Shown here piece after piece: positions 20,083-33,113 of a DNA stretch of 64,000 bases; positions within the stretch are counted from its first letter, which is position 1, and every line of letters starts with the position of its first letter. Under the pieces are notes generated by a model, which worked only from the letters and a program-made list of their open reading frames with translations, was not told the origin of the DNA and did no database searches. The DNA is from Anaerolineae bacterium (lineage in GTDB: Bacteria > Chloroflexota > Anaerolineae > Anaerolineales > Anaerolineaceae). A program made the position numbers and the translations under genes. The DNA is taken from the NCBI GenBank assembly GCA_013314735.1, contig JABUFD010000001.1:62001-126000 (forward strand). The letters run 5' to 3'.

Positions 20083-21573
20083 CTAAGGGTTGCCCGGCGC
20101 GATCTGCCACACATGCACCACAGGTTGAGCGCCGTCAGCAAATAGTTCCAGGATGTAAAGCGTGCCGTTGGCGGTGTCAAATGCGATGTCACCAATGCGT
20201 GCGCGGCGCTGTACGCCGTTGCCCAACATGTTGGTTTCCACATTGTCCGGGTTGTGGTACAGCACATCATCGATTGTCATCACCGCGTACGGCTGCGGCT
20301 GCCACGCTTCCATGGTGCCGTTTGCCACCCGGGCCAGGTCGGCGGGATCATAGAACAGGATTTGCGCCTGGAATTCTGAAGACCACCAACCCCGGTAATC
20401 ATTGTGGCCGGTGCAGCCTGATAAATCTTCTGAGGGGCAGGGAGTGCCATCCGCCAGCCGGCAGGTGACAAATTCATCCCGCAGTTCCGTCTCGATGCAG
20501 GGGAATTCCGGGCCCGCAGGATGCTGCCAGCCGTACCAGGTTTTCGCGCCGGTCGCTTTGGTTCCTGCGAAGATCACAGCGGAACGGCCATCATCATCCG
20601 CCAGCCAGGCGCCGCCCTCCCACTCATCCGCGTGCGAATACCCGGTCAGGGCATGGGAGAAATCCTCCGATGTGAAGGAACTGTCATACTGGAGCAGCGG
20701 GATGGTTGCCAGGGTACTGCCATTCGGCACAGGGGAGCCATCGGCCAGCCAGGGCTGGTAGGCATACAGGGATGGACCCATGCCTGACCAACCACCGTCG
20801 CGGTAGCGCCCGCTGGCAAGACGTATGCCATTGAAATACGGGTCAGCCCATTCCTGGGGGATGGGGAACAAGTATCCATTGACACTGTATAGCGAAGGGG
20901 CATCCAGGTACCATTCGCCCTTGAAATCTGGATTGTCCAGAACGGTTGCAACCCAGCCGTGTGAAGGGGCTGCGGCACCATCCTCCTGAAAATGCGCTCC
21001 CCAGGTGATATGCAGCAGCGGACCGGTGGTTGGGGTATCGAGGAAGGCCAGCCCAACGCGGGGAATCTCTTCCAGGCTGGTGAAATGCCCGGCGGCGACA
21101 TCATCGAAGGGTTGGAGGAAAGCAGTTGTCGGCAGGCTGGCAATATCGGTAAAAAGCATTGGGGCGGGGATGGAAAGCTCCGCCACCTGGTTGCCATCCG
21201 GCATCTCACCATAAGGCAGGCGGTCATGCCCCATGATGAACAGGCTGCCTGGAAATCCATCATCCGGCCCGGATAGATCACCAGAAGGGAAGTAGGTCAT
21301 GGCATTCCCGCCATAGGCAAACGTTTCCGGGCGCTCACCACTGGCAGGCAGTCGGAATGCACCGAGGTAGCGCAGATCCTCCGGAAGAATCAAATCAGAT
21401 GAGATAACCTGCAGGCTGGTCGCTGGTTGTGTTACTGTGGACAAGGTGGGGGTCAATGCGCCTGGCTGCGCAGGTTCTGAGGCAACAGTATCAGATAGCC
21501 GAGTGGAACATGCGGTGATGGCCCAACAGAATGCCAGACAGAATAACAGGCGATACATATGGAGTATTTTCAT
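20083..21573 (-). CDS. secreted lipoprotein, possible beta-propeller, function unknown
   Basis: A 496-residue protein with a signal peptide and lipobox (AFCWAITAC, Cys about 23), a Thr/Pro-rich linker, then a globular extracellular domain beginning LILPEDLRYLGAFRLP. It is rich in Gly, Asp and aromatic residues (TFAYGGNAMTYFPSGDLSG, FIMGHDR, WGWQHPAGP-like stretches, GDIAFDTANGTLYILEL near the end), as in beta-propellers. It has several Cys (FPCIETELRDEFVTCRL..PCPSEDLSGC), possibly disulfide-bonded. I do not recognise a characterised family. The ATG at 21573 is chosen; a TTG two codons upstream is the alternative. It lies 87 bp downstream of the exosortase-locus glycosyltransferase on the same strand, so it may belong to that operon. 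Confidence 0.7.
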   Translation of the reverse strand: MKILHMYRLLFCLAFCWAITACSTRLSDTVASEPAQPGALTPTLSTVTQPATSLQVISSDLILPEDLRYLGAFRLPASGERPETFAYGGNAMTYFPSGDLSGPDDGFPGSLFIMGHDRLPYGEMPDGNQVAELSIPAPMLFTDIASLPTTAFLQPFDDVAAGHFTSLEEIPRVGLAFLDTPTTGPLLHITWGAHFQEDGAAAPSHGWVATVLDNPDFKGEWYLDAPSLYSVNGYLFPIPQEWADPYFNGIRLASGRYRDGGWSGMGPSLYAYQPWLADGSPVPNGSTLATIPLLQYDSSFTSEDFSHALTGYSHADEWEGGAWLADDDGRSAVIFAGTKATGAKTWYGWQHPAGPEFPCIETELRDEFVTCRLADGTPCPSEDLSGCTGHNDYRGWWSSEFQAQILFYDPADLARVANGTMEAWQPQPYAVMTIDDVLYHNPDNVETNMLGNGVQRRARIGDIAFDTANGTLYILELFADGAQPVVHVWQIAPGNP

Positions 21574-21660
21574 TGCCAATTCTTTCGATTGATACCATCA
21601 TCGTACAAAAAAAGAATGTGGTTGGCAAGAGAGCAACTGGATCGTTTGGTAACCGATGCG

Positions 21661-22995
21661 CTATACCTGTTCTTTGGAGCGCCAGGCTGTAAATCGCTGA
21701 ACCAGGGAATGCCATTGTGCCTGCAAGGCAGTTTTTAGCTGGGTGATCGGGTTTGGCACGGCCCAGGAAAAGGGTTCATTGATGGCATAGATGAAGCCGG
21801 AAACGCGGAACAGGAAGATCGTGATGCGGTAGAGGGGCATCAGCGGCAGCAGGAACCAGTTTTCCAGCATACGTTGGCGTACGGCAGGGGCAGCGTATAG
21901 CCATGCAGCAGCGATCCAGATGCCTTCCACGGCCAGGTAGAACAGGTACATGACCAGATACGAGAACAGGATCATTGAACCGGTATAGCCAAAATGCGTC
22001 AAAATCGGCAAAAATACCAGCCAGATCAGGCGCGGGAGGGCAAGGGTGTGGTCGATGAGCAAGGTGCGCTGCAGGGATAGGCCCTTAAGGCGCAGGAAGG
22101 AATGTTTCACCAGGTTCTGGTGCAGGGCGGCTGCTTCCAATTCACCGCGCTGCCAGCGAACTCGTTGGGAATAGAGCTTTGCCCAGTCTTCGGTCGGGTG
22201 CAGGTAGGCAACTGCGTTCTGGATGGTCACGATTTTATGCTCTTTTGCCTGCGTATACAACTGCAGGGTCAGGTCCGTATCTTCGCTGACGGTGTCCTGG
22301 TTATAGAGGAAGGTCCGCAGCAGGATTTCACGCCGGAAGACCGAAAAAGCTCCCGACAGGGTAAACAGGGCATTGATCTGTGACTGGTAGGCGCGCCCAA
22401 CGCCGAATACCGTTACATATTCGAAGAATTCCAGTTCTGCCAGAATTTTCTGACTGCTGGCGGCCTCTTTTGCCGGTGGCAGTACCACCAGGTAGCCGGT
22501 GGCAGCGCCGATATCGGGTTTGCTTTCCATGTGGGCAATCGCATTTTCTACCGCGTCCGGTGCAAGGATCAGATCACAGTCAACATTGATAAAATATTGT
22601 GAATGTGACAGGTAAATACCTGAATTCAGTGCCCACGCTTTCCCCCGCCCGATAATGCTGTGCCAGGTGATACGGTTGCGAATATCGGTCAGGCGGTTGA
22701 ATACCTGGAAACTGTCATCGGTGGAGCCATTGTCAATCACCATAATTTCCAGCAATTCCGCCGGGTAGGACTGTGCCGCGATGGAGCGGATGCAGGCTTC
22801 GAGGGTTTTTGCGCCGTTCCGAACCGGGATCACGATCGATACCTTGGGGTGAAAATCAAGCGATTGCTGCTGATGGAAACTGCGGTGGTTGAAGACTGCT
22901 CCAAACAGGCTGGCGATCACGGTGATCCCATCTACCAGGATGGGCACCAGCAGCCAGATGATCCAGAACAGGATGTAAGCGGTGGTGGTGCTCAT
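21661..22995 (-). CDS. membrane GT2 glycosyltransferase, exosortase-G-associated type
   Basis: A 444-residue inner-membrane glycosyltransferase. An N-terminal helix (about 5-35) is followed by a cytoplasmic GT2 domain: VSIVIPVRNGAKTLEACIRSI, IMVIDNGSTDDSFQVF, INVDCDLILAPDAV (metal-binding Asp pair), TVSEDTDLTLQLY (catalytic Asp) and LYSQRVRWQRGELEA. The last carries the QxxRW motif of processive polysaccharide synthases. Three or four C-terminal membrane helices follow (about 320-420). Layout and adjacency match the GT2 partner of exosortase XrtG in Gram-positive bacteria (TIGR03111-type, from memory). Its ATG overlaps the exosortase stop (ATGA), so the two are coupled. The polymer is unknown. 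Confidence 0.85.
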   Translation of the reverse strand: MSTTTAYILFWIIWLLVPILVDGITVIASLFGAVFNHRSFHQQQSLDFHPKVSIVIPVRNGAKTLEACIRSIAAQSYPAELLEIMVIDNGSTDDSFQVFNRLTDIRNRITWHSIIGRGKAWALNSGIYLSHSQYFINVDCDLILAPDAVENAIAHMESKPDIGAATGYLVVLPPAKEAASSQKILAELEFFEYVTVFGVGRAYQSQINALFTLSGAFSVFRREILLRTFLYNQDTVSEDTDLTLQLYTQAKEHKIVTIQNAVAYLHPTEDWAKLYSQRVRWQRGELEAAALHQNLVKHSFLRLKGLSLQRTLLIDHTLALPRLIWLVFLPILTHFGYTGSMILFSYLVMYLFYLAVEGIWIAAAWLYAAPAVRQRMLENWFLLPLMPLYRITIFLFRVSGFIYAINEPFSWAVPNPITQLKTALQAQWHSLVQRFTAWRSKEQV

Positions 22996-23615
22996 CCAGC
23001 CCCCTGTGTACTGCGGTTGCGGATATTAGCATGGATCAACTTAAGGGAGGGGGCGGAGATCAGGAACCAGTAGATTGCGATGGTAAAAATGAAAAATACC
23101 AGTTTCCCCAGGAAGGTGTGGGCCAACACGAGCACTTCTTTCCCAAAGAAATGCAGCATCAGGACGATCAGCAGCATCCGCAACAGGTTGGCGAGCCAGG
23201 TGAGTGCGATCCCTGCCAATGCACGCCAACCGCGGTCTTTCAGATTCCAGCCCGGGTAAAAGGCGATCAGACCCAACAGGACGCTGATCTCGAGCAGGGC
23301 CGATGACTCCACCCCGATTTGCAATGCCGTCCAACCCACGCGCTGCACCACTACCAGGACCAACAGCAAGCCGGGCGTTTCTTCGAAAATCTGGGTGGGG
23401 ATATTGACCAGGCTGGTGACAAAATGGATCGCCTGCGCCACGGATTGGGCCAGCAGCACTTCGGAATGCAGCAGGCTGCGGTTGATGAAAACAATCAGGG
23501 TGGCAAAACCGATGGTTCCCAGCAGGTAATAAAAAATCCAGATGCGCTGGCGGTGGAGGAAAACCACACCCAAAATCCAGGCAATGGTAACAGCAAACAG
23601 AAAGATCAGGTTCAC
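22992..23615 (-). CDS. xrtG: exosortase family protein, XrtG-like, Ser in place of catalytic Cys
   Basis: A 207-residue polytopic membrane protein. I take the GTG at 23615, which forms a GTGA overlap with the upstream gene, rather than the longer frame inside that gene. About five to six membrane helices are visible (2-20, 25-45, 83-98, 103-120, 133-155, 166-188). The conserved exosortase segments are QIGVESSALLEISVLLGLIAFYP (about 99-121), WLANLLRMLLIVLML (AN-x-x-R, Arg146) and VLAHTFLGKLVFF (His166). Exosortases process C-terminal sorting signals with a Cys/Arg/His triad and normally read E-C-S-G at the first site; here it is E-S-S-A (Ser104, codon TCA at 23306-23304). It is placed between its putative substrate and the GT2. 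Confidence 0.8.
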   Translation of the reverse strand: MNLIFLFAVTIAWILGVVFLHRQRIWIFYYLLGTIGFATLIVFINRSLLHSEVLLAQSVAQAIHFVTSLVNIPTQIFEETPGLLLVLVVVQRVGWTALQIGVESSALLEISVLLGLIAFYPGWNLKDRGWRALAGIALTWLANLLRMLLIVLMLHFFGKEVLVLAHTFLGKLVFFIFTIAIYWFLISAPSLKLIHANIRNRSTQGAG

Positions 23616-24307
23616 AGGGTCGCCTTTCGTTTGCCGGAGACCTTGCGGGTTCGCAAAGCCATCCAGATACTTCCAACGATCAGTATCGTCAGCAGGATAA
23701 GGTAGCCCAGGGCATTGGCCGGTGTCCACTGGATCGGGGTATCGAGGATGTCAGCGAAACTGCTGGAGTACATATCCATCGTAACCGATACCGCCACACC
23801 CGGCAGGATGCCCAAATTCCCAAACGAAACACCCAACTCTACCCGTGCCCCGCCATCCCTGCTGGATTCACCCCAATCGGCTTTGGAGGCAATGGTTGTT
23901 ACATAACTTCCACTGCCATCATATACCGCTACATCCACCAAGGACTTGTTAGCGCTGAGGTTATAGCGGATGTCAATCAGGCGGTCTTCCGGGTCGCTGT
24001 AATCACCATCATCATTGACATCAATCCGGATCATCCAATCGGTGGGTGCATTGGAGCTCCCGCTGCGCTCGAACATAAAATACACAACCTGATTATTCAT
24101 GTCAGAGAAAAAGCAGAAAGAAGCGATATCGAGGGTTGGCTGGCTGTCGCCGATGGCATCGCCCACACAGGGTTTGCCGGTCCAGTCTGAGAAATCGCCA
24201 TCCAGACTGATCCCCGCGCTTTGCGCTTTTACCGGTGTTACGCGGTATCCAAGGCATAGCACCGTAAGGGTCAATACGATCAGCAGGCGTGCCATTCTAG
24301 CGTTCAT
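23612..24307 (-). CDS. small secreted protein with C-terminal sorting-like anchor (putative exosortase substrate)
   Basis: A 231-residue protein with an N-terminal signal peptide (about 1-28, cleavage near VKAQS). The extracellular beta-rich domain opens ISLDGDFSDWTGKPCVGDA, the 'DGdfsDW' motif of many secreted binding domains, and contains a calcium-like acidic loop RIDVNDDGDYSDPEDRLIDIRY. The C-terminus is tripartite: a short conserved-looking PIQWTPANALG, a hydrophobic helix (YLILLTILIVGSIWMAL) and a basic tail (RTRKVSGKRK). That is the layout of exosortase/archaeosortase sorting signals. In Firmicutes a comparable protein (Firmicu-CTERM) sits beside xrtG. The start overlaps the upstream gene by 11 bp and the stop overlaps the exosortase GTG. 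Confidence 0.75.
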   Translation of the reverse strand: MNARMARLLIVLTLTVLCLGYRVTPVKAQSAGISLDGDFSDWTGKPCVGDAIGDSQPTLDIASFCFFSDMNNQVVYFMFERSGSSNAPTDWMIRIDVNDDGDYSDPEDRLIDIRYNLSANKSLVDVAVYDGSGSYVTTIASKADWGESSRDGGARVELGVSFGNLGILPGVAVSVTMDMYSSSFADILDTPIQWTPANALGYLILLTILIVGSIWMALRTRKVSGKRKATL

Positions 24308-26807
24308 CGGGTTTCCCTGAAAAGTGGCTGAAAACGATCAGGCACAGCAAAGAGATCGTGCTTGTAGCCCATCCGATAAGAGCAGTGGCAGGCTTCTGAA
24401 ATGTTACCTGGTAATGGTGCTGCCCCGCGGGAGCATCCAGCTGGATCAAGTTGGCGATGGGAGTGGTTTCCACCGCTGTACCATCCACTGATACCCGCGT
24501 ACCGTCAAAATGGGCAAACGGCAGCAGGATGGTGCGGGATTCCTCCAGGCTGATGTCGAACGCAATCATTTTTCCGTTGGCTGTGTAGTGTTCCAGGGGA
24601 ATGGTATGATAGTCCATCGGCTGCCCGGCTGGTATCTGCAGCACATCTTCGAGAATACGAACCGAACCTTCATCCTGGTTGATGACGGCGTGGTAGGGCA
24701 GGTTGAGACCGATGAACCAGATCTGTTCTGTACCCACCTGCCTGGTTCCGGTCAGCACCAGGGACTGGCCGAGAAAATCAGAGGTCAGCCATTCCTGGTC
24801 CAGATTCTGGGGGGTGAGGGTGTACCACAGGCTGCCGTGGTCATGGAAAGGCGACAATTGGAGCAGTCCGGAACCGGAGGCCAGTTGGATCGGGTTTTGA
24901 TCCAGAATCACGCGCTCCCCCCATACATCGAGAAAATCAGGCTGTTGCGAGAGCGGATTTTCCCTGGTTTTGGTAAGGTCAATCACCACACGTGTTCCAG
25001 TTTTGGCTAATGCGGTGACGAGTGTTTCGGCGGTGTTTTTGTTGTGCCAGGTAAAACCAGCCAGGATCACACACCGATAACGGGACAAAGTTTCCAGGCT
25101 GTAGTCATCAATATAGGCCGAATCGGCAGTGATGATCTGCGGAAACAGGTAGGCATAATTCTGGGCGGTTGTGCCAATGCCAATGGTATCCCATTCGGCG
25201 ACTATAACCCGTGGCGCGCCTGGGCGGTGGAATGCCCGGTACTGGCTGCTGCTGCCGGCGGACTGGAATCCAGCCTGTGCCAGGGCAGACTCGAGTCCGT
25301 AGGGTTGCGGAATCTGGTTGGCAACCCACACATCATCGACACCGGCCAGGTTCAGGCGGTCAATGGCATAAGCTGTCCGTCCGACCTGCAGGGCTTCGTT
25401 GATGCCGGAAACCAGGGTGGCCGTACGTGCCCCCTGAAACCCCCAGCCAAACACCTGTTCGCGCATCCCTTCACTGCTGGCGTAATAGGAAGGGGCAGAA
25501 CCGGTTCTTGAATGGTCAAGCGTTGCCTGCCGCCAGCCTTCATTGGTAGACAACTGACGGGCAAGCGCCTGTTGTTCGCCGTCATCTGGCCTGTTGAAAA
25601 TTAACCGGCGCGAACCGGTAAAATCCACCAGGATCAGCAGCAGGAGGCATACAGCCACAGTCTGCCAGGCTGGTTGGCGCGGGTTATGATGAAAAATGAG
25701 GCGTATGCCCCATACACATGCTGCCAACAGGAATACACTGGCGGCGGTGAGAAAACGAGCCGGCCACATCAGGGTGGAAAGCGGCAGCGCATTGAAAAGT
25801 TGGTTCAGTACCGGTGTCACCAGCAGGCAGCCCACCCATCCGGTAAGCAGCAGCGCCCAGAAGGTGTGGTTTTTGCGGACAGCGGGATGGCACATGAGAA
25901 GCATCGGTACAACTGCCAGTGCCAGGCCAACATACAGGGTTTCGATGTTTGCCAGACGTGCCATCGGGTTGAAGAGGGATGATACGGACACTACAGGCAA
26001 ACCCTGCGCCATGGCTTGCTTACTGAGTTCAGTGATACCGCCGTTCATGCTCGGGAACAGCCAGAAGGAGGCAGACAGGATACCCATGGCGATTGCCGCG
26101 GTAGTAGTTCCCACGTGGGAGAGCGGCAGGCGCTGCAGCACGGTGCTGGCCAGCAGGAACAGGACAGCCACAGCGGCTGTGATCGAGGCGATCATCGGGT
26201 GGCTCAGTACCAGCAGGGTAAAGGTCAACCCCAGGGGAACCAGTATTTTCCGCGGCTTTGGTTGTTCCAGGGTAACCATTAACAGGTACAGGATCACTGG
26301 CAGGAGGGCGTTGGCAAAATGGCGCAACAAATTGCCTTCGGCGAAGGCGACCCGTACCAGGTCCGGGAGGAGCAGATAAAGGATGCCGGCGGCGGAGGCG
26401 ATCGGCCAGCCCAACCTGCGGTGGAACAGCAGCCAGGAAAGCCCGCCGCCCCAGGCGCAGGCGATGATGAACCAGGTGGAAAGCGTCACCGGGTTGTCAA
26501 ACAATGGCGACAGCCATGCCAGGGGGTAGTACAGCAGCGGGGGATAGTAGCGGAACAACTGGATGCTAAGATACCACTGCGGTACAAAATCGGGCAGCCA
26601 GATGCCTTCGGTGATGGATTGCCGCAGGAATTCATAACGGAATACATGCCCGAGGGTGTCGGACCCCCAGGGGACGGCATTGGGATCAAGCAGCAGGCGT
26701 CCGTAAATCAAGGCGCAGGCCCCGCTGACCAGCAGGAACCCGGCCAGGATGCCGGGAAAGTACCTGGCTGCAGAATCAGTCTTTGTGGTGGTCGATGCGG
26801 CGGTCAT
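24297..26807 (-). CDS. large membrane protein of the PTPS-related family
   Basis: An 836-residue polytopic protein. About 11-13 membrane helices occupy residues 15-385, with GT-C-like segments GSDTLGHVFRYEFLRQSI, FVPQWYLSIQLFRYYPPLLYYPLAWL (aromatic-rich first loop with Asp/His) and YLLLPDLVRVAFAEGNLLRHFANALLPVILY. A long extracytoplasmic domain (about 400-800) and a final helix (about 810-828) follow. This matches the family annotated '6-pyruvoyl-tetrahydropterin synthase related domain; membrane protein' (PF10131-like, from memory), named only for its genomic link with PTPS-like genes in exosortase-G loci. A lipid-linked-sugar glycosyltransferase role is plausible. It overlaps the PTPS-like gene by 32 bp and the next gene by 11 bp. 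Confidence 0.8.
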   Translation of the reverse strand: MTAASTTTKTDSAARYFPGILAGFLLVSGACALIYGRLLLDPNAVPWGSDTLGHVFRYEFLRQSITEGIWLPDFVPQWYLSIQLFRYYPPLLYYPLAWLSPLFDNPVTLSTWFIIACAWGGGLSWLLFHRRLGWPIASAAGILYLLLPDLVRVAFAEGNLLRHFANALLPVILYLLMVTLEQPKPRKILVPLGLTFTLLVLSHPMIASITAAVAVLFLLASTVLQRLPLSHVGTTTAAIAMGILSASFWLFPSMNGGITELSKQAMAQGLPVVSVSSLFNPMARLANIETLYVGLALAVVPMLLMCHPAVRKNHTFWALLLTGWVGCLLVTPVLNQLFNALPLSTLMWPARFLTAASVFLLAACVWGIRLIFHHNPRQPAWQTVAVCLLLLILVDFTGSRRLIFNRPDDGEQQALARQLSTNEGWRQATLDHSRTGSAPSYYASSEGMREQVFGWGFQGARTATLVSGINEALQVGRTAYAIDRLNLAGVDDVWVANQIPQPYGLESALAQAGFQSAGSSSQYRAFHRPGAPRVIVAEWDTIGIGTTAQNYAYLFPQIITADSAYIDDYSLETLSRYRCVILAGFTWHNKNTAETLVTALAKTGTRVVIDLTKTRENPLSQQPDFLDVWGERVILDQNPIQLASGSGLLQLSPFHDHGSLWYTLTPQNLDQEWLTSDFLGQSLVLTGTRQVGTEQIWFIGLNLPYHAVINQDEGSVRILEDVLQIPAGQPMDYHTIPLEHYTANGKMIAFDISLEESRTILLPFAHFDGTRVSVDGTAVETTPIANLIQLDAPAGQHHYQVTFQKPATALIGWATSTISLLCLIVFSHFSGKPDER

Positions 26808-27273
26808 TGGATACCAGGGTCACCCCGATGGTTGGGGATTCATTTAACGTGATTTCCAGGATTTCCAGCGGCAGATGTTGGGTCAGCTGCTCCATCTGGT
26901 ATGCAATCACCTGGACCAGGTTTTCGGTAGTGGATTGGATTTTTTGAAAAACCGGGATATCGTTCAGACAGCGTCCTTCATAATGCTGGGCAATCTGGCG
27001 CAGGATGGCGCGGAAATCTTCGAAGGGAAAATAATAATTGCCATCAGAAGGATCGTCGTAAGCAGCGATGGCCGTTAATTGGAAGGAGTGCCGGTGCATT
27101 TCTCCGAACTTTCCCGGTTTATACTCAATCTGGTGGGCTGCGTTAAAAAAAACACTCATCTGCAGCTGCATCCTGTACGATTGTGGAGCAAGCGCCAACT
27201 CTTCAAGATTCCACATACTTTCTTGCGGTGTGCCCCCTGTATGAAGTTGTCTGTCATTGGTTTGCACCAGCAT
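26776..27273 (-). CDS. 6-pyruvoyl-tetrahydropterin synthase (QueD-like) related protein
   Basis: A 165-residue protein with a T-fold PTPS/QueD-like domain from about residue 36. FFNAAHQIEY (His47) and MHRHSFQLTA (His60, His62) supply the three zinc ligands. STTENLVQVIAYQMEQL and ILEITLNESP (a conserved Glu) complete the pocket. The catalytic Cys that usually lies four residues before the H-x-H motif is absent (FGEMHRH), and the usual HGH is HRH. It is therefore unlikely to be a standard PTPS or QueD. It is the promoter-proximal gene of the exosortase-like operon, as in other XrtG loci where a PTPS-related gene is a constant but unexplained member. It has an ATG at 27273 with AGGGTG upstream and an N-terminal extension of about 35 residues. 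Confidence 0.8.
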   Translation of the reverse strand: MLVQTNDRQLHTGGTPQESMWNLEELALAPQSYRMQLQMSVFFNAAHQIEYKPGKFGEMHRHSFQLTAIAAYDDPSDGNYYFPFEDFRAILRQIAQHYEGRCLNDIPVFQKIQSTTENLVQVIAYQMEQLTQHLPLEILEITLNESPTIGVTLVSNDRRIDHHKD

Positions 27274-32372: not shown

Positions 32373-33113
32373 TTACGCAGAAGTACGGTCGTACAATCCG
32401 CGGCGGCGGTTGCGCTTGATGCGGAAGGTATCCTTCACCATGTCGATCGTATCGCGCACCACGCGAACACGGCTGTCGGTATCGAAATACCAGTGGATGC
32501 CGATTTCCTTGACCCTGTACCCGCGCAGGTTGGCGATGTAGAGGATTTCAGTGTCGAAGGCCATCCCGGCTGCGGTTTGCAGCGGGAACAGGTCTTCCGC
32601 CGGACGGGCGCGGAAGCACTTGAAACCGCATTGTGAATCCTGGTACTGCGGCAGGATCAGCAGGCGAATGAGGGTATTAAAGATGCGTCCCATCACGTGG
32701 CGGTACTGCGGCTCATCAATGCGGACAGAATCTTTGGCTTCCCGCGAGGCGATGGCGATATCAACATCACCTGCCAGCAGGGGGGGAATGAACTTGGCGA
32801 CATCCCCGATCGGCATGCTCAGGTCGACGTCGAGGAACATGCGGTATTCCCCGCGGGCGGCGAGCATGCCGGCACGCACCGCCAGTCCTTTGCCGCGTGC
32901 GTTTTCCTTTAATACCGTCAAGGCCGCGAAGCGCTCGCGGAAGGCGCAGGCGACCTCGTAAGTGCGGTCAGCGCTGCCGTTTTCCACCACAATGATCTCC
33001 CCCGCAAACGGCTGCGCCTCCAGGAAGGCGATCGCTTGTTCGAGGGCGTTGGGCAGGCGCAGCTCTTCGTTGTGCGCCGGGAAAATGAGCGATAAAAACG
33101 GTCGTTCAGGCAT
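32373..33113 (-). CDS. GT2 glycosyltransferase, dolichyl-phosphate glucosyltransferase-like
   Basis: A 246-residue GT2 enzyme of the DPG/DPM synthase type: PFLSLIFPAHNEELRLPNAL (about 5-24), GEIIVVENGSADRTYEVACAF, ENARGKGLAVRAGMLAARGEYRMFLDVDLSMPIGDVAKFI with the DxD-like DVD (about 95), QDSQCGFKCFRARPAEDLFP, and VKEIGIHWYFDTDSRVRVVRDTIDMVKD. Such enzymes load a sugar from an NDP donor onto polyprenyl phosphate for later transfer outside the membrane. No C-terminal membrane helices are present, so it is peripheral. The gene is convergent with the lipoprotein gene; copy A of the dispersed repeat lies between them. Confidence 0.87.
   Translation of the reverse strand: MPERPFLSLIFPAHNEELRLPNALEQAIAFLEAQPFAGEIIVVENGSADRTYEVACAFRERFAALTVLKENARGKGLAVRAGMLAARGEYRMFLDVDLSMPIGDVAKFIPPLLAGDVDIAIASREAKDSVRIDEPQYRHVMGRIFNTLIRLLILPQYQDSQCGFKCFRARPAEDLFPLQTAAGMAFDTEILYIANLRGYRVKEIGIHWYFDTDSRVRVVRDTIDMVKDTFRIKRNRRRGLYDRTSA

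Follow-up and report, generated by a model that had tools for sequence, protein, structure and literature searches.

What does an exosortase of the XrtG type do in a Chloroflexota genome, and can it work with serine in place of the catalytic cysteine? The question is raised by five minus-strand genes at 21661-27273 of the 64,000-nucleotide stretch of Anaerolineae bacterium DNA analysed here (GenBank assembly GCA_013314735.1, contig JABUFD010000001.1, positions 62,001 to 126,000; hereafter the window), which encode a PTPS-like protein, a polytopic PTPS_related membrane protein, a C-terminally anchored cargo protein, an XrtG-like exosortase and an XrtG-associated family 2 glycosyltransferase (GT2). 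The analysis inclines us towards a one-cargo XrtG-type exosortase system in which a CBM9-like protein is joined to a glycan or glycolipid that the module itself produces. A preliminary description of this DNA had called the function of XrtG unsolved, and indeed no paper establishing it was found among open-licence full texts, where an absence is weak evidence; nor did searches of that literature list a title on such a system in Chloroflexi or on a serine-form exosortase. An excerpt of PMC12854382 reports higher XrtG system transcripts in strains of Lactiplantibacillus plantarum, and a table in part of PMC8951740 has an entry for an XrtG-related family name. New with respect to the preliminary description are the split of the exosortase between Ser and Cys nucleophiles, the family-wide loss of the PTPS active site, and a CBM9-like cargo with a conserved tail. 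The natural occurrence of both a Cys and a Ser form within one exosortase family provides a test of the catalytic model of the group, and the Ser form combined with a one-cargo design makes these loci a good place for testing what XrtG does.

The exosortase (22992-23615, 207 aa), recognized as such in the preliminary description, matches TIGR04178 with 47.6 bits (cut-off 23), a permissive model whose cut-off was exceeded in 3 of 14 control genomes, and TIGR03110 with 80.2 bits (E 1.8e-22; cut-off 102.75). Its alignment by hhalign with the annotated XrtG of Lactococcus lactis has a probability of 99.4%, and its AlphaFold2 model has a predicted local distance difference test score (pLDDT) of 89.7; against the PDB, the best Foldseek match of the model has E 0.37, and a profile of the exosortase family found no chain. 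The open reading frame (ORF) can be extended upstream to 22992-23729; of the possible starts, the GTG at 23615 is the one overlapping the stop codon of the cargo gene. In alignments, Ser104 (codon TCA) stands at the nucleophile position, and Arg146 and His166 are present. The protein thus falls outside the Cys class (Cys, Arg, His/Arg) of the TIGR04178 superfamily, in that Ser104 replaces the Cys; beyond the residues of ArtA, we take this set to be the catalytic one. The catalytic residues of ArtA are Cys173, Arg214 and Arg253, according to the relevant passage of PMC9263693.

The nucleophile was compared across 48 distinct exosortase loci, the window included, that were left after removal of 12 duplicates: 33 from Chloroflexota (assigned from the name of the record or from relatedness to the window genome), 3 from Bacillota, 9 from Actinomycetota and 3 annotated plasmid-borne XrtG loci (L075-L077) added out of four hits. 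Loci L017, L040-L045 and L116 fell under the 60-bit limit and were left out. The count also excludes the short loci L001-L009, L018-L032 and L078-L102, most of which are contained in longer stretches, except for L028 and L031, whose weak matches are represented by the short stretch alone. Serine occupies the position in 18 of the 48 rows, all from Chloroflexota, and cysteine in the other 30, which include all 15 rows from outside that phylum; the Arg and His never vary among the 47 rows with letters at their columns. The active-site block reads ESSG or ESSA in the window and 17 other Chloroflexota loci, and ECSG or ECSA in the exosortases of Bacillota and Actinomycetota and in plasmid-borne XrtG. 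Among the weak Chloroflexota matches, those with a readable block (L025, L026, L027, L031 and L017) have Cys; the block is unreadable in L028, L029, L030 and L032.

When the nucleophile column is left out of the alignment, the resulting unrooted exosortase tree requires two changes to explain the distribution of Ser and Cys (2-3 on bootstrap trees) versus a mean of 14.8 for shuffled states, and an earlier tree of 39 rows gave the same number of changes. The starred branches of the tree force two changes: one belongs to a 17-row Ser clade of many families (support 93/84), the other to L039, whose Ser sits inside a Cys clade of Tepidiforma-like loci. Serine at this position is, in the sequences compared, the mark of a Chloroflexota lineage. 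Cysteine is presumably the ancestral state, because the outlying rows have it, as do exosortases at a greater distance, and both changes would then have run from Cys to Ser. Comparison of the window with a locus of the same genus gave ratios of nonsynonymous to synonymous differences (pN/pS) of 0.20 for the exosortase, 0.19 for a partial GT2, 0.27 for the PTPS-like protein, 0.39 for the PTPS_related protein and 0.41 for the cargo, values that are rough because synonymous sites are near saturation or saturated. Ser104 would be a working nucleophile.

The cargo protein (23612-24307, 231 aa) consists of an N-terminal hydrophobic segment resembling a signal peptide, a domain of about 150 residues, the motif WTPANALG, a C-terminal helix (197-229) and a basic tail; it thus has the short motif, hydrophobic helix and basic end of a C-terminal sorting tail. 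The tail consensus is W[ST]PA[ND]xLG, with W194, P196 and G201 invariant in 12 aligned sequences. Its resemblance to Firmicu-CTERM proteins is weak: TIGR04145 gives it 16.6 bits (cut-off 50) and matches 4 of the 12 aligned members at E 0.1, the best at 3.1e-4, and 18 columns around DGNFDDW align with the cargo of L. lactis. When Foldseek candidates were realigned with its AlphaFold2 model (pLDDT 82.7), the best was the CBM9 structure 7nwo (Z 10.0, 146 residues, root-mean-square deviation 3.5), and the next four, with Z from 9.6 to 8.7, were a putative carbohydrate-binding protein, an ethylbenzene dehydrogenase subunit, a glucodextranase and a nitrite oxidoreductase subunit; rows beyond these five are unrelated, with Z of 7.8 or less. 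We take the five, in part from general knowledge, to share a CBM9-like fold, and the cargo domain as modelled has that fold.

The expression P.{1,3}[LMA]G, a loose one picked after the tails had been seen, occurs in the last 45 residues of 33 of the 36 genes found just upstream of an exosortase at 38 loci, versus 35 of 219 other ORFs with hydrophobic tails. The motif is also kept at loci that the cargo profile does not match (L034, L039, L058-L060 and L070), as expected of a recognition signal. In the window genome, which is 95.5% complete, the tail pattern has one site and its reversed control none. Loci of the Tepidiforma type (L039:10429-12306, L034, L058, L059 and L070) carry a longer cargo in the same slot, in ORFs of 497-625 aa, which lacks a match to the cargo profile but ends in a tail like GA[PT][TA]MGWxLLG. 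At L033:2-3043 a single ORF joins the C-terminal part of a PTPS_related protein, a stretch rich in Ser, Thr and Pro, and a CBM9-like cargo domain with tail; this may be a real fusion or a stop codon lost in assembly. A seeming fusion of cargo and exosortase at L108 was rejected: the reading frame of the cargo breaks and continues into that of the exosortase, and the exosortase ORF of the sister locus L107 is separate.

The GT2 (21661-22995, 444 aa) matches TIGR03111 with 365.3 bits, 1.35 bits over the cut-off of 363.95; the next-best model, that of PgaC/IcaA (TIGR03937), gives 133 bits (cut-off 422.3). It has DxD, ED and QxxRW motifs, the last being a mark of processive polysaccharide synthases. 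Across 38 GT2 rows, DxD is present in 36 (not in L061 or L063), V-x-EDT in 35 (not in the three plasmid rows) and QR-x-RW-x-RG in 36 (not in L076, nor in L011, which ends at its contig).

The PTPS-like protein (26776-27273, 165 aa; PF01242, 60.7 bits, cut-off 22.4) was compared, along with the other PTPS proteins of module loci (27 in all, three annotated Gram-positive ones included), with QueD-type chains, in which we assume the zinc-ligand and catalytic residue positions. The zinc-binding His triad is present in the window protein and complete in 25 of the 27 (not in L035 or L076), and the Glu of TxEN is kept in all. At the columns of the catalytic Cys, Asp and His, the window protein has Phe, Glu and Gly; the Cys is absent from 27/27 proteins (a gap in 8), the His from 27/27 and the Asp from 25/27. 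Since the annotated Gram-positive proteins behave alike, loss of the active site is a family trait. The preliminary description had both catalytic cysteines of the module replaced, which is borne out by Ser104 of the exosortase and by the Phe at the PTPS Cys column, but the latter is no peculiarity of this genome. The module PTPS is probably not a pterin synthase and is likely to be a binding or scaffold domain. Because it is the sole PF01242 match in the genome, an ordinary QueD seems to be missing.

The PTPS_related protein (24297-26807, 836 aa) matches PF10131 with 356.4 bits (cut-off 26.4), a family listed in the GT-C clan in part of PMC7801869. Its conserved DxxxH loop (GSDTLGH in the window) is present in all 18 rows, of 20, that have letters there; a phmmer search of the PDB returned one hit only (E 0.56), so that no PDB relative is apparent by sequence. 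In assemblies of Symbiobacterium and Eubacteriales, one ORF encodes both PTPS and PTPS_related parts (L061:4970-8056 and L068:4817-7966), a natural fusion that ties the two proteins together. These fusions make concrete a second question, namely why a PTPS without an active site should yet keep its zinc ligands. At L037, which has no PTPS, the module is preceded at the contig edge by a second, diverged PTPS_related gene (L037:426-2801).

The five genes of the window are closely packed: the PTPS-like and PTPS_related genes share 26776-26807 (32 bp), the PTPS_related and cargo genes share 24297-24307 (11 bp), and the cargo/exosortase and exosortase/GT2 junctions are GTGA (23615-23612) and ATGA (22995-22992). 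These ORFs and junctions had been given correctly in the preliminary description, and each of the five families that it named was matched by a profile, although PF01242, PF10131, TIGR04178 and TIGR03111 are over their curated cut-offs and TIGR03110 and TIGR04145 under theirs. For the PTPS-like protein the best-scoring NCBIfam model was TIGR03112, at 49.9 bits (E 3.4e-13; cut-off 69.35). Judged by NCBI thresholds, none of these three proteins (exosortase, PTPS, cargo) counts as a formal member of XrtG, TIGR03112 or TIGR04145, respectively. TIGR03110, TIGR04178, PF01242, PF10131 and the cargo alignment each match the genome once.

The order PTPS, PTPS_related, cargo, exosortase, GT2 is complete in 18 of the 48 loci, namely 15 of 33 Chloroflexota loci (with the window) and 3 of 15 others, all three from Bacillota (L061, L063 and L068). 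This recurrence is more than chance, and it is the conserved synteny that the preliminary description had looked to for support. At 8 further Chloroflexota loci (L010, L033, L056, L060, L109-L111 and L114) the view is truncated by the contig end. Six Actinomycetota loci (L062, L065, L066 and L072-L074) have, in order, exosortase, GT2 and a PTPS_related match that is weak, at 28 to 43 bits. By homology, the five window genes make up the XrtG module known from Gram-positive bacteria, in a variant form whose exosortase has a Ser nucleophile.

The distribution of the system is patchy. At E 0.001, TIGR03110 has matches in 9 of 151 relatives and in 15 of 400 genomes of the phylum (the window genome being counted in both), 8 of the 15 at 5.2e-21 or better; its cut-off was reached in no genome of the 151, 400 and 6 searched, the three five-gene Bacillota included. 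The exosortase alignment A4 has matches at E 1e-10 in 10 of 396 genomes of the class and 13 of 301 of the order, which are overlapping samples. Scanning one genome per species with a single short pattern found 29 loci in Chloroflexota, Bacillota and Actinomycetota; such a scan amounts to no census and is not expected to find the classical XrtG of Firmicutes. The Chloroflexota among them include Oscillochloris sp. ZM17-4, Tepidiforma flava and Anaerolinea thermolimosa IMO-1, a named strain whose compact one-cargo module makes the function of XrtG testable.

In the pathway that we propose, the cargo would be exported and then stay in the membrane, anchored by its C-terminal helix. Cleavage by the exosortase would fall near the P..[LM]G motif, outside the helix, with Ser104 (a Cys in relatives), Arg146 and His166 as the catalytic residues; the enzyme would then hand the cargo on, by way of an acyl-enzyme, to an acceptor, presumably a glycan or glycolipid. 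The GT2 would synthesise, and possibly extrude, a polysaccharide as the source of that acceptor; the GT-C protein may add or transfer sugar on the outer face, with the PTPS-like protein as its zinc-binding, non-catalytic partner.

The strongest argument against Ser104 as the nucleophile of this pathway comes from ArtA, whose Cys173 is critical according to a review (PMC9263693), so that a Ser could mean lost activity. The exosortase might then be catalytically dead, cleaving nothing and acting as a chaperone or scaffold in the membrane that keeps the anchored cargo beside the glycan machinery; in favour of this it counts that the module PTPS, too, has lost its active site. However, rows with Ser have the same Arg and His as the others, both the ESSG block and the tail of the cargo are conserved, the exosortase has a pN/pS of 0.20, and Ser is kept throughout a 17-row clade of many families and recurs in L039; a dead enzyme is in our judgement unlikely. 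Another account grants the exosortase its activity but has it only cut and release the cargo, while the glycosyltransferases modify the cargo, for example by GT-C O-glycosylation, or some other envelope glycan, and no protein is transpeptidated onto a glycan. In favour of this account it counts that the GT-C clan includes protein O-mannosyltransferases, as an excerpt of PMC7801869 states. Release of one cargo would not obviously need a dedicated synthase, although we reach this by inference, and the QxxRW pattern of the GT2 is that of polysaccharide synthases; to this account, too, we give little credence. That the locus is an ordinary XrtG system with sporadic spread and no special chemistry, the difference between Ser and Cys being neutral, would agree with the patchy distribution, but the clustering of Ser on the tree, far from the shuffled mean, and the Cys in every row from outside Chloroflexota make it highly improbable.

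Linkage of the cargo to a glycan or glycolipid, the reading that we prefer, has further points to contend with. The open-licence literature yielded no experiment on processing by any XrtG. Foldseek alone gave no match for the cargo fold at E 0.001, and two chains of the same fold, 2ivf_C and 7b04_C, are enzyme subunits that we take to bind haem, so that sugar binding by the cargo is not a given. The tail motif is missing from the three annotated plasmid XrtG cargos (L075-L077). Gene content also varies where there is room for the full set: L014 has no adjacent PTPS; L015, L016 and L115 have exosortase, GT2 and PTPS_related in that order and no PTPS; and L034, L039, L058, L059 and L070 have PTPS, another cargo, exosortase and GT2 and no PTPS_related match. 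A bolder form of the linkage reading, which we advance tentatively and with more doubt than confidence, would make the serine exosortase an intramembrane Ser-Arg-His transpeptidase that joins the CBM9-like protein, by its newly formed C-terminus, to the polysaccharide being extruded by the GT2, that arose twice from the Cys form, and that works beside a PTPS-derived pseudoenzyme serving as cytoplasmic partner of the GT-C protein. If this were true, the serine exosortase would be a protein-polysaccharide ligase.

The XrtG/Firmicu-CTERM system of L. lactis plasmid pBV60 shares with the window module an exosortase, the associated GT2, a PTPS-like protein and a C-terminally anchored protein with a domain that begins DGxFxDW. 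It differs in its Cys nucleophile, in its gene order (cargo, xrtG, GT2, PTPS, TIGR03766) and in having the TIGR03766 protein where the window module has a large protein of the PF10131 type; moreover, the three plasmid XrtG cargos lack the W[ST]PA[ND]xLG tail of the window cargo. The annotation of Lachnospira eligens also includes a PTPS_related protein. Archaeosortase A of Haloferax belongs to the TIGR04178 superfamily as well; it has several substrates, whereas the window module has one cargo, a Ser and a glycosyltransferase pair. The Haloferax enzyme is alike in the tripartite tail of its substrates and in pairing a nucleophile with Arg, and differs in its Cys nucleophile and lipid acceptor, as described in part of PMC9263693. 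PEP-CTERM/exosortase systems, such as that of cyanoexosortase B, likewise place an exosortase in an extracellular-polysaccharide setting (excerpt of PMC12188702), but they have many cargos and Gram-negative-type envelopes, unlike the one-cargo, five-gene unit of the window. The GT2 resembles the poly-GlcNAc synthase PgaC/IcaA, under the cut-off of TIGR03937 as noted above, and unlike it is embedded in an exosortase module.

The XrtG cluster of pBV60 (L075:4304-10582) lies directly behind diguanylate cyclase (GGDEF) and EAL genes on the same strand, which hints at control of the GT2 by cyclic di-GMP (c-di-GMP). On that account the c-di-GMP gts operon of Lactobacillus acidophilus (PMC6123363) was considered as a functional model; it was set aside, since GtsA is described as having no conserved domains and no link emerged. 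In the window, the neighbouring gene at 20083-21579 was rejected as a module member, having no match at the 21 loci tested (L010-L017 and L033-L045). A scan for promoters and terminators gave weak consensus matches, 8 versus 4.3 expected and 14 versus 6.4 expected. A second GT2 is encoded on the same strand 5 kb upstream (32373-33113); it resembles polyprenyl-phosphate sugar synthases, though over no cut-off, and the GT-C protein might receive a polyprenyl-phosphosugar from it.

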